DNA of 64,000 nt from positions 1 to 64,000 of the forward strand of contig NZ_OLMR01000001.1 of assembly GCF_900291955.1 (NCBI RefSeq), written 5' to 3'. Origin of the DNA: Pseudoruminococcus massiliensis (lineage in GTDB: Bacteria; Bacillota; Clostridia; Oscillospirales; Acutalibacteraceae). Below, one piece after another: positions 58,449 through 61,960 of this stretch (within the stretch, counting starts at the first letter, position 1; the number at the start of each line of letters is the position of its first letter). A program made the translations under genes and the position numbers. Under the pieces are notes generated by a model. That model was not told the origin of the DNA. It ran no database searches and saw nothing but the letters and a program-made list of their open reading frames with translations.

Positions 58449-58454
58449 CAAAAA

Positions 58455-58477
58455 AGTGGTGGATAAAATCCGCCACT
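58455..58477 (-). terminator. terminator of the YbjN-YbjN-AAA unit
   Basis: Minus strand AGTGGCGGAT-TTT-ATCCACCACT then TTTTTGTTTG; 70 bases after the last gene. Confidence 0.82.
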
Positions 58478-58548
58478 CAAGAGTAAGAGATGTTAAGAAT
58501 TTCGCACTTCAAACACATCAAATGCTCAACCTGAACATTGAAATTTTG

Positions 58549-58977
58549 TTAGCTACAAAGCCTATCCGTATATTTCTTGACTACTCCACAAGTATACGAA
58601 ATCATATTCTCTATTTGCTTATCACTTATCAAACTTCCATTAAATGAAGTTGCCATTCTGAACTCTATCGAACCACTATATAAATCATAATCAAAACTGC
58701 CCATATCTAATTCACAAGAGCACTTGCAAATATTCACACAAGCTTCAAATCTGTTATTCTCGTCAATTTGAACATCAAGTGGCGAATAGAGTCTTATAAG
58801 CTGTCTTTCAGCATCAATAGTTATAGTAAATGGTATAAAGCTTGCCTCTCTTTTAACATCAAAATTTACGGTCATTATTTCTTCATCATCATCGAAATCA
58901 TATTTATTTTTTCGAACAATATTCAAAAGCGACCCATAAACTCTATTAGCAGAAATCATTTCATTTTTATCAGCCAT
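58549..58977 (-). CDS. YbjN-domain protein 2
   Basis: 142 residues. NFDVKREASFIPFTITIDAE, ICKCSCELDMGSFDYDLYSG and IEFRMATSFNGSLISDKQIE fit the YbjN fold (PF10722 type), which is like that of type III secretion chaperones. It follows the first YbjN gene by 11 bases and looks like its diverged paralogue: both have F-D-[FY]-D-[IL]-x-[SN]-G-x-I-x-F-R-M-[AT]. Last gene of the unit. Confidence 0.72.
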   Translation of the reverse strand: MADKNEMISANRVYGSLLNIVRKNKYDFDDDEEIMTVNFDVKREASFIPFTITIDAERQLIRLYSPLDVQIDENNRFEACVNICKCSCELDMGSFDYDLYSGSIEFRMATSFNGSLISDKQIENMISYTCGVVKKYTDRLCS

Positions 58978-58988
58978 AAACTACACCT

Positions 58989-59462
58989 CTAAATACCATT
59001 TCTGTCAACAAATTCGTCCAAGCTTATTGAGCCTTCAGCAAGCAATTTAAATTGTTCGCTATATTCATCTAACATACTCAATAAACAGTTTATCATATAC
59101 TCATAAGCTTCTTTTCCAATAAGGCTATCGCAAAAACAATTTGTCATTCGGAAAAATATCTTTCCATTATCAATATCAAAATCAAAACAACCATTTGCAG
59201 TAAAATTATTGATAAAGCAAACTGCTGCCGCTAAATCCTCTGTTCTACTCCTTTTAACTATACAAGGAAGTTCAGATATAAGCATTACAGACATATTCTC
59301 TACATTTACTTTAAATATAAAATCTATATGTAAGCCAAATTTATGAGTCATACAGCTTATGCTAAGATTTTCTTCATCATTCGAATGTTCTATTCTCTCC
59401 TCATCAAGAGCTTTAATAATATTTTTCAAAACAAAATCAATCTGTTTTTTCTTGTCAGACAT
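58989..59462 (-). CDS. YbjN-domain protein 1
   Basis: 157 residues from ATG 59462 (GAGGTAAA upstream), preferred over the start six codons earlier. HIDFIFKVNVENMSVMLISE, AAAVCFINNFTANGCFDFDI and GKIFFRMTNCFCDSLI mirror the downstream paralogue. It is placed 27 bases after the AAA gene. Likely partner or substrate adaptor of that ATPase (inference). Confidence 0.72.
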   Translation of the reverse strand: MSDKKKQIDFVLKNIIKALDEERIEHSNDEENLSISCMTHKFGLHIDFIFKVNVENMSVMLISELPCIVKRSRTEDLAAAVCFINNFTANGCFDFDIDNGKIFFRMTNCFCDSLIGKEAYEYMINCLLSMLDEYSEQFKLLAEGSISLDEFVDRNGI

Positions 59463-59489
59463 TATAAATTTACCTCGCATTAACTACAA

Positions 59490-61490
59490 TTAAAATCCGA
59501 TTGTTATTCTTGATTTTTTAGCAACTAAAGCCTGAAAAGCTCTTTCTGTTGAAGCAAGCTTAAAATCATCTACTGTAAGAGTAAGCTTATTTATTCCACT
59601 CAGCTGCATTCTCATACTTGCTTTTGCACAGGTTCTCTCAAAAAGATTGCGAACAAATCTTGCATTGCTGAAATCCTTAGCTGAAAGAGTTTCATCACTG
59701 ATAGAATTAAAATACTCAGTAACAGCACTTTGGAAATCTTCATCATACTCAAATGAATTGCCAAGCATTTTAAAATAAATTTGGCAAAGCTGTTCTCTAG
59801 TATAATTAGGAAATTCTATAACATAAGGCATACGGCTTGCAAGGCCATTATTACCCTTCATAAGCTCATTCATTTCATCTGTATAGCCCGCCATAATAAC
59901 AACAAAATCATCTCTATGATTTTCCATTTCGGAAATCAGCGTATCGAGTGCTTCTTGTCCGAAATCATTTGTATTATTTTCGTTTCTATAAAGCGAATAA
60001 GCCTCGTCTATAAACAGCACAGAGCCATAGGCATCTCGACACATTTCAGCAGTCTTTGGAGCAGTTTCGCCAACATATCTTCCGCAGAAATCTCTGCCCG
60101 AATATTCAAAGAAATTGCCGTTTCTCAGAACACCGTTTTCCTTTAAAATCTTTCCGATTATTCTTGCAACAGTAGTTTTGCCCGTTCCAGGACTACCTAC
60201 AAATCTCATATGTATGCAAGGATAGCTTATATTTGGAATCCTTCGTGAGAATTTAATATGTGCTATAATTTCCTCTACACTATGCTTAATTTGCTCCATA
60301 CCAATCATATCATCAAGCAAATCCATACCGTTAACGCTATTATTGCTATATGACTGCGAAAGTGAAAGAATATCTTCTTTTCTTATACTTGAATTATCTC
60401 TATCATTCTGTGCATCGCTAAGCTGTTTGCGATATATCATTTCACGAACGATTTTATTGACAGTATTTATACCATAAAACCTGCCATCGCTTTTTTCTTC
60501 CATAACTCTTGCATGAAAAACATCCCATACATCGTTATTTGCAGTAAAGCCCATTTTTGTAAGAAATCTTTCCGCACATTCTGTAAGCTCTTCCATTCCC
60601 AAAGGAGGAAATGAAACTTCTCTCACGAAAAGAATATCCTGCAAAGCTGTATTTATATCATTAAGAACATCTTTTTCAACAAATGGTATTCTAAAAATAA
60701 TAACATTATCATTAGTATAGTCCTCAAGATAAAGCAAGAAATCACGAAATTGCTTTTCAGTAATTTTTGTCATCCATTCGCTTATATCTATTGAAATAAG
60801 CATACCCTTGTTATTTGTATGTGACTGAAAACAATTCATAACTCCTGCAAACGGGTCTACTCTATCATTTCCTTGTGGTGGAAGCTTTACTTCAACAACC
60901 TTTTGCCTATTTCTGAATTTAAATAACTTTAATTCCTCTAAAAGCTCTGCAAAAAGACTCAGATATGTTGTAAATCCACAGCCATCATTTATAGAAAAAA
61001 GATAGTTTTGAAATGCAAAAGCCTCAAAGGTATTATGTCTGATAATACCTGGAGCAATAGTAACGATTTCTCTGATAAGTACCTTAAAATCGTCCGCACC
61101 TATCAAATCCTCTATTTTATCGAGAGCCATAGGTCTTATTACATTTTTGCTTTCAACAATAATAGGTTTCTTTTTTTCAATTATGCTTTCTTCTTTTTCA
61201 ATACTATCTTCAAAAAAATCACCTATACTAAGATTTATTATTTCGTCATTTTCTATATCAAAATTTTCTGATAAAATTTTCTCAACAGCATATGCTATAT
61301 CTTCTTTTGAAATATTTGGAACTTTAACAGCAACTTCGCAATCAGTAAAAGAAGTATAAAGTACTTCAGTTTCTCCATTGAATCTATCATTTATCAAATC
61401 AATAAAAGTGTTTATCGGAAGCTTTTTAGATAGTCTATGTCTTAAAATCCACTCTCCGTCAAACTCTATACTTATTTTTTTAAAGTGCAT
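59490..61490 (-). CDS. AAA+ ATPase, CbbX/EccA-like, with extra N-terminal region
   Basis: 666 residues. The C-terminal half (about 400-660) is a CbbX-type AAA+ domain: Walker A GSPGTGKTTVARIIG near 431, RDFCGRYVGETAPKT pore/Walker-type region, Walker B GSVLFIDEAYSLYR near 490, and sensor VVIMAGYTDEM. Residues 170-350 look like a second AAA-like module with a Walker-B-like GMLISIDISEW but no P-loop. The first 110 residues form a separate domain. First gene of a unit with two YbjN genes. Related ATPases remodel Rubisco or serve type VII secretion; neither is present here. Confidence 0.85.
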   Translation of the reverse strand: MHFKKISIEFDGEWILRHRLSKKLPINTFIDLINDRFNGETEVLYTSFTDCEVAVKVPNISKEDIAYAVEKILSENFDIENDEIINLSIGDFFEDSIEKEESIIEKKKPIIVESKNVIRPMALDKIEDLIGADDFKVLIREIVTIAPGIIRHNTFEAFAFQNYLFSINDGCGFTTYLSLFAELLEELKLFKFRNRQKVVEVKLPPQGNDRVDPFAGVMNCFQSHTNNKGMLISIDISEWMTKITEKQFRDFLLYLEDYTNDNVIIFRIPFVEKDVLNDINTALQDILFVREVSFPPLGMEELTECAERFLTKMGFTANNDVWDVFHARVMEEKSDGRFYGINTVNKIVREMIYRKQLSDAQNDRDNSSIRKEDILSLSQSYSNNSVNGMDLLDDMIGMEQIKHSVEEIIAHIKFSRRIPNISYPCIHMRFVGSPGTGKTTVARIIGKILKENGVLRNGNFFEYSGRDFCGRYVGETAPKTAEMCRDAYGSVLFIDEAYSLYRNENNTNDFGQEALDTLISEMENHRDDFVVIMAGYTDEMNELMKGNNGLASRMPYVIEFPNYTREQLCQIYFKMLGNSFEYDEDFQSAVTEYFNSISDETLSAKDFSNARFVRNLFERTCAKASMRMQLSGINKLTLTVDDFKLASTERAFQALVAKKSRITIGF

Positions 61491-61645
61491 TTATAAATCC
61501 TCCGCAAAATATTTTAACATCATATACTAAAATAAGATGATACTCCGCTATTCAGTTTATCAATTATAATTTTATCATTATACAAAAAAACAGTCAATAG
61601 CTAACAAACTTTCCTCAAAATACTGATTTTCATAACAAAAGAAAT

Positions 61646-61948
61646 TAAGAGGCGAACTTCGTTCGCCTCTTAGAGAGAATGAGATGTTAAGGGCTTCGCC
61701 CTTAAAACCCACCAAAGGCTCTGCCTTTGGAATCCGCAAGCTTTTGAAAAAGCTTGAGCAAAACTTTTAATTATCTTAGGGAAGCTTATTAGCTAAACGA
61801 CAATTCACTGGTAAATTCTTAATTTGCGTCAATAAACTTCTCTTGTCAATGTCGAGGTTTTGCTTGCAAAACCGATTCCGCGACTTGACAGCGGAGGCAC
61901 TCCGCCTCGAGCGAAATTTTTAATTGTCTTAGGGAAGTTTGTCAACTT
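61646..61948. repeat. modular palindromic repeat, double copy after addA
   Basis: First part 61648-61795: GAGGCGAACTTCGTTCGCCTC, TTAAGGGCTTCGCCCTTAA, CCAAAGGCTCTGCCTTTGG, AAGCTTTTGAAAAAGCTT, tail TTATCTTAGGGAAGCTTATT. Second part 61849-61948: TCGAGGTTTTGCTTGCAAAA, GGCGGAGTGCCTCCGC-type stem, GAGCGAAATTTTTAATTGTC, tail TTAGGGAAGTTTGTCAAC. It reaches to 12 bases from the addA stop. Confidence 0.85.
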
Positions 61949-61960
61949 ATCAGCAGTTAC

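Follow-up and report, generated by a model that had tools for sequence, protein, structure and literature searches.

What is the function of an operon in which an AAA+ ATPase is followed by two small proteins of the YbjN kind? We addressed this question for one locus of Pseudoruminococcus massiliensis, contained in a stretch of 64,000 nucleotides (contig NZ_OLMR01000001.1, positions 1 to 64,000) that was analysed as a whole and that we define as the window. The first-pass annotation had described a 666-residue CbbX/EccA-like ATPase, two small paralogous genes and a terminator, and we recover this arrangement with all three reading frames co-directional on the minus strand, the ATPase being followed by the two small proteins and then by the terminator (Table 1).

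Table 1. Features of the ATPase-YbjN operon in window coordinates
Feature	Position	Strand	Basis
AAA+ ATPase, SpoVK/CbbX/EccA clade, 666 aa	59490..61490	-	ORF; Pfam; G002 copy
Small alpha/beta domain at the N-terminus (order beta-alpha-alpha-beta-beta-alpha-beta), residues 1-95	61206..61490	-	AlphaFold2 model
D1, degenerate AAA+ domain, residues 121-370	60381..61130	-	Foldseek and holA match
D1 Walker A, degenerate, NDGCGFTT with Phe in place of Lys, residues 168-175	60966..60989	-	alignment
D2, intact AAA+ domain with lid, residues 392-643	59562..60317	-	motifs; CbbX and EccA1 alignments
D2 Walker A GSPGTGKT, residues 432-439	60174..60197	-	alignment of 20 members
D2 pore loop 1, Tyr-Val-Gly, residues 472-474	60069..60077	-	alignment
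Ile-Gly-Phe at the C-terminus, candidate docking motif for ClpP, residues 664-666	59493..59501	-	family comparison
YbjN-fold protein 1, 157 aa from likely start	58989..59462	-	ORF opens 59480; paralogy, profile link
YbjN-fold protein 2, 142 aa	58549..58977	-	AlphaFold2, Foldseek
Intrinsic terminator ending the operon	58450..58478	-	hairpin with a T run after it; -12.9 kcal/mol, z=-3.56

The ATPase matches the Pfam models AAA (4.4e-20) and AAA_lid_6 (2.5e-9) and is 94 % identical to its counterpart in another species of the genus (G002, uncultured Ruminococcus RUG11102), where the whole trio is retained. The best profile matches of the second AAA+ domain (D2) are SpoVK, CbbX and EccA, and these matches span the whole AAA domain. 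D2 has a conserved Walker A, a Walker B reading LFIDEA, a GY sensor-1 (MAGY), the motifs SRMPY and NARFVRN that provide the Arg finger and a second Arg at sensor-2, and AAA_lid_6. Among 20 aligned members the Walker A motif is kept in all, the second residue excepted, and pore loop 1 reads Tyr/Phe, Val/Ile, Gly across the family. The window protein nevertheless misses the cut-offs of all three equivalog models, with 251.3 bits for SpoVK (TIGR02881, cut-off 422.95), 209.4 bits for CbbX (TIGR02880, cut-off 459.25) and 203.9 bits for EccA (TIGR03922, cut-off 466.65). Judged from its sequence, the protein is a member of the SpoVK/CbbX/EccA clade but lies far under every family cut-off.

The N-terminal half of the ATPase has no match in a Pfam search. 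Its predicted structure (pLDDT 84.7, 20 relatives) has a small N-terminal domain, for which the pLDDT in the AlphaFold2 model is mostly 74-91 up to residue 90, a disordered linker and a further domain, D1. The best Foldseek match of the D1 model in the PDB is CbbX (3syl, E=1.6e-11), and the holA profile matches residues 231-350 (E=1.6e-5). The Gly-x-Gly of the D1 Walker A loop (G170, G172) is invariant, the Walker Lys is found in 0 of 20 relatives, and the Walker B position, which reads IDIS in the window protein, is without its Asp-Glu pair in these relatives. The P-loop-less AAA-like region noticed at first pass is thus confirmed and, given these losses, the ATPase reads as a pseudo-AAA/AAA tandem in which D1 is degenerate and D2 is intact.

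The identification of the two small proteins as YbjN holds by fold, even though the Pfam model PF10722 (cut-off 22 bits) calls neither of them. Protein 1 most likely starts at the second ATG, at 59462 and not at 59480, because a GAGGT ribosome-binding sequence lies just 5' of this internal ATG and because the resulting MSDKKK start aligns with the MADK and MADE starts of relatives. With this start, the three genes are separated by 27 and 11 nt. Proteins 1 and 2 are paralogous to each other (23 % identity, E=9e-11). The model of protein 2 (pLDDT 91.3) has the alpha/beta sandwich fold of class I type III secretion chaperones and YbjN, and Foldseek matches it to ExsC (1.8e-4), AmyR (2.5e-3), E. 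coli YbjN (2.9e-3) and DR_1245 (2.9e-3), all at a probability of 1.00. Close family members score 25.5 (G057, above the cut-off) and 17.4 (G161) with PF10722, and the profile of the window YbjN family is linked by hhalign (98 %) to a PF10722 member encoded elsewhere in the same genome. The pair accordingly shares fold and profile link with the YbjN/TY-chaperone superfamily (E. coli YbjN, AmyR, DR1245, BacA, class I type III secretion chaperones) and differs from it in being a tandem of paralogues tied to an AAA+ ATPase or, in relatives, to an AAA-AAA-M41 protein.

We considered a conserved orthology of first and second YbjN positions and rejected it, the tree leaving the pairing unsettled. The window genome encodes two more, solitary YbjN proteins (L111:7547-8026 and L137:7913-8380; G000 C12 and C19). 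Upstream of the operon, the gap between an AddA-like gene and the ATPase (61640-61960) contains a number of palindromic elements, among them a strong terminator at 61646-61672.

The most constant feature of the ATPase outside its AAA+ motifs is its very end. A C-terminal [IVLF]GF is present in all 28 full-length members that we located (17 genera), followed in three of them by one further residue, and the sequence preceding it is mostly variable. Among 627 long reading frames of the neighbourhoods, 24 have this ending, 23 being this ATPase and one a related SpoVK-like ATPase. In ClpX and ClpA, IGF is the ClpP-docking motif and is located in an internal loop of the large AAA+ domain (PMC9035409). 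The terminal [IVLF]GF of the 28 members corresponds to the docking motif [LIV]-G-[FL], except that it is placed at the end of the chain instead of within a loop. In the literature searched we did not find a free C-terminal IGF tail as a ClpP-docking arrangement, known IGF motifs being loops (PMC9035409).

The possibility that a C-terminal IGF characterises all SpoVK-like ATPases was rejected, since control forms of 350-540 aa are devoid of it. In more distant SpoVK-like control ATPases the motif is found at most two residues from the end in 8 of 50, which are 670-725 aa forms except for one contig-truncated case, those placed on the tree constituting a separate clade; ten controls were scored and no canonical SpoVK was found among them. 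This separate SpoVK-like clade (L115, L156, L173, L174, L183, L185, L186, L187), mostly of 670-725 aa, ends in [IVLM]GF plus zero to two residues, and neither YbjN nor clpP was detected in the short flanking stretches covered.

Few kinds of ATPase are believed to serve ClpP, namely ClpX, ClpA, ClpC and ClpE. For the present ATPase family, a clpP gene is found close downstream in three genera, in the order ATPase-YbjN-ClpP in G154 and ATPase-ClpP in G735 and G521. The ClpPs of these operons are 86-89 % identical to one another and mostly 57-66 % identical to housekeeping ClpPs, and by these identities they form a distinct ClpP subfamily. Despite this closeness, the ATPases paired with them are only 43-49 % identical. 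A fourth genome, G559, has the same ClpP (85 %) on another contig, unlinked to its ATPase, and the ATPases of all four genomes form one clade (support 100/100). A ClpP this close occurs in 2 of 278 genomes of the class, G521 and G559, both of which have the ATPase; the ATPase itself is present in 7 of 391 genomes.

A separate case is G178, where an extra clpP lies in a cluster (L192:6827-10763) whose next genes resemble a coupling-protein ATPase; this cluster is possibly a mobile element.

A second peptidase is found with the YbjN proteins. YbjN pairs are located in front of a fused AAA-AAA-M41 protease in three genera (G281, G311, G740), or near a vWA and a tubulin-like gene. Homologous sigma-like and small HxxxCxxC anti-sigma-like proteins precede ATPase-YbjN in G161 and G301, and the same pair precedes both a Card1-ATPase arrangement in G178 and the YbjN pair with AAA-AAA-M41 in G740. 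Because they share the sigma/anti-sigma pair and YbjN, both kinds of operon look like versions of a single function, in which an ATPase with YbjN helpers has its peptidase in trans (ClpP) or in cis (M41). This likeness to FtsH/M41-type proteases has its limit in the peptidase itself, which is fused there and absent from the window operon. Since the sigma/anti-sigma pair of several relatives is of the ECF type, the system may be induced by stress.

At two loci, that of the G311 YbjN pair (L081:8049-15771) and that of the G735 ATPase-ClpP (L146:9494-16134), a gene with a vWA-like N-terminus and a Tubulin_2 protein gene follow, the vWA-like N-terminus being confirmed by Pfam in G311 only and not in G735. 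These common genes suggest a larger shared system.

The best explanation, to which we give an even chance, is that the operon encodes an ATP-driven unfoldase and two YbjN substrate adaptors that together feed the ClpP peptidase. The ATPase would form a ring through its intact D2, by analogy with CbbX and SpoVK, and the catalytically dead D1 would be a structural or substrate-entry tier. The two YbjN proteins, whose fold and linkage are observed, would bind unfolded or specific segments of the client and present them to the ATPase, and the Tyr-Val-Gly pore loop of D2 would thread the client. Six free IGF tails would occupy the hydrophobic pockets of ClpP, the sites at which ClpX docks by its internal IGF loops, in a manner comparable to the HbYX tails of proteasomal ATPases. 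The client would then be degraded by ClpP, a step to which the motif, the operon linkage and the co-occurrence point. Since the window operon has no clpP, the partner in the window genome, which encodes a ClpP at G000:C12:57340-57909, would be the housekeeping ClpP; in some relatives it would be the dedicated ClpP encoded next door, while in others the YbjN pair would serve the fused AAA-AAA-M41. More tentatively, we propose that this is a new class of Clp-type protease, defined by a pseudo-AAA/AAA ATPase that docks ClpP by free C-terminal IGF tails and by YbjN adaptors that alternatively serve AAA-AAA-M41.

Such a system would resemble ClpXP, ClpAP and ClpCP with their adaptors of the MecA and SspB type, which likewise have an aromatic-hydrophobic-Gly pore loop and an IGF motif in the ATPase. 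Further points of likeness are the clpP in the operons of three genera, which the window operon does not have, and the small putative adaptors encoded next to the ATPase. It would differ from them in the AAA+ clade, in the position of IGF at a free C-terminus instead of an internal loop, and in the use of YbjN-fold proteins instead of known adaptors. The component parts are all of known kinds. In the open-access literature searched, we found no description of the combination, of a C-terminal IGF or of a peptidase link in the SpoVK/CbbX/EccA clade. If true, the proposal would provide the first peptidase link for this clade and a new ATPase class for ClpP, a new ClpP docking geometry by a free C-terminus and, for part of the YbjN superfamily, whose function has long been open, a role as proteolysis adaptors.

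Alternatively, the operon may encode a dedicated remodeller that acts without proteolysis in the manner of CbbX and SpoVK, with the ATPase threading part of one specific client, which is thereby activated or reassembled, the YbjN proteins recruiting or protecting this client, and the terminal Gly-Phe having another role such as ring assembly. CbbX and SpoVK, the best-studied members of the clade to which the ATPase belongs, remodel their targets without proteolysis. Narrow, dedicated chaperones without peptidases are the published pattern for this clade, and the survey that described it found no peptidase association (PMC10659427). The window operon is without clpP, many ATPases of the family are solo genes, and the ClpP operons come from a divergent subclade, all of which counts against a ClpP partner. 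SpoIVA is present in 16 of the 19 genomes carrying the genes, a count that has no matched baseline, and a sporulation-stage client is possible. On the other hand, the dedicated clpP in three operons together with the genome-level co-occurrence, the invariant IGF tail, and the exchange with an AAA-AAA-M41 protease under a common sigma/anti-sigma pair and with common YbjN partners speak against this remodeller, and we regard it as unlikely, though a serious competitor.

D2 of the window protein has its Walker motifs, the GY of sensor-1, the Arg fingers and the lid in common with the SpoVK/CbbX/EccA clade (PMC10659427). The window ATPase differs by its 666 aa, by the added degenerate D1 and small N-domain, by the terminal IGF, by the linkage of its family to clpP and YbjN, and by scores of 204-251 against cut-offs of 423-467. 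A tandem D1-D2 of the same kind is found in a Streptomyces beta-helix EccA-like protein (WP_326813255.1; 30 % identity over 535 aligned positions), which in contrast has both Walker sets intact, a beta-helix N-terminus, a location near the type VII gene eccC and no IGF tail.

It is also conceivable that the operon belongs to a conflict or anti-phage system, with the ATPase and a peptidase as effector or sensor and with the CARF nuclease, tubulin-like and vWA partners seen in some genomes. A gene for a Card1-like CARF/PD-(D/E)XK nuclease immediately precedes that of the ATPase in two genera, G735 and G178 (L146:6034-7260, L104:9591-10832), PADLOC matches CARF-PDDEXK in the neighbour of a relative's ATPase, TY-chaperones of the YbjN superfamily have been proposed in ADP-ribose conflict systems (PMC9503650), and the distribution of the ATPase is patchy. 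However, PADLOC finds generic AAA similarity and no system match for the window genes themselves, and the nuclease is absent from the window and from most relatives. Phage and plasmid matches of the ATPase are partial, mostly confined to the AAA region, and none covers 80 % of the query. We consider a conflict system improbable; the same matches led us to reject a mobile-element origin.

To what extent is the ATPase-YbjN association itself conserved? The full-length ATPase is present in 23 of 394 genomes of the order, and YbjN relatives are present in 16 of the 394; six-frame profile matches were used for loci such as G164, G264, G361 and G384. Both families occur together in 5 genomes compared to 0.9 expected (P=0.0012, uncorrected for relatedness, G161 and G301 being of one genus). 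The two genes adjoin each other in four genera (g1, g125, g98 and that of G559), and in G559 the YbjN gene is upstream and not downstream of the ATPase, belongs to a different YbjN lineage and is a true PF10722 match (4.9e-11). A 689-aa reading frame adjoining YbjN in G276 was discarded as a wrong-frame ORF over another gene. Most ATPase genes of the order stand alone, and neither YbjN nor clpP adjoins them. A comparison of neighbours between genera, with no families preselected, returned as specific recurrent families YbjN, ClpP, the sigma/anti-sigma pair and the Card1-like protein, the other recurrent neighbours being generic ABC-type or unidentified matches. The module had been called conserved-looking at first pass; this applies to the ATPase-YbjN linkage, which recurs in three further genera, and not to the exact trio, which we see in the window's genus only.

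A chance neighbourhood, in which a solo ATPase and a YbjN pair came to share a terminator in one genus by accident, would fit this restriction of the trio and the lack of a detected YbjN in G204 and G225, whose ATPases are closest to that of the window, a result that also counts against YbjN adaptors. The adjacency in four genera, once with reversed order and another YbjN lineage, and the excess of genomes with both families make such an accident highly improbable.

Least probable is an accessory role in type VII or other secretion, for which the EccA-like similarity of the ATPase, the secretion-chaperone fold of YbjN and the Streptomyces EccA-like protein near eccC would speak: a secretion role is very unlikely because none of the 19 genomes that carry the genes has a WXG100 protein (the B. 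subtilis control being positive), so that we rejected the type VII link. In addition, the ATPase scores 204 with the EccA model, whose cut-off is 467, and no secretion gene recurs among the ATPase neighbours between genera. Of the chaperone or remodelling system first suggested, the CbbX/EccA-like ATPase with YbjN stands by fold and by recurrent linkage, whereas a tie to secretion does not. The most telling features, which the first-pass annotation lacks, are the IGF tail, the neighbouring clpP in relatives and the exchange with M41; all three point to regulated proteolysis rather than secretion.

YbjN-like genes are also found in another setting. In G048, G158 and G119 (L135:6866-9636, L091, L092) they adjoin an apparent sensor histidine kinase, and in G048 a response regulator is also beside them, these identities being judged by sequence only.
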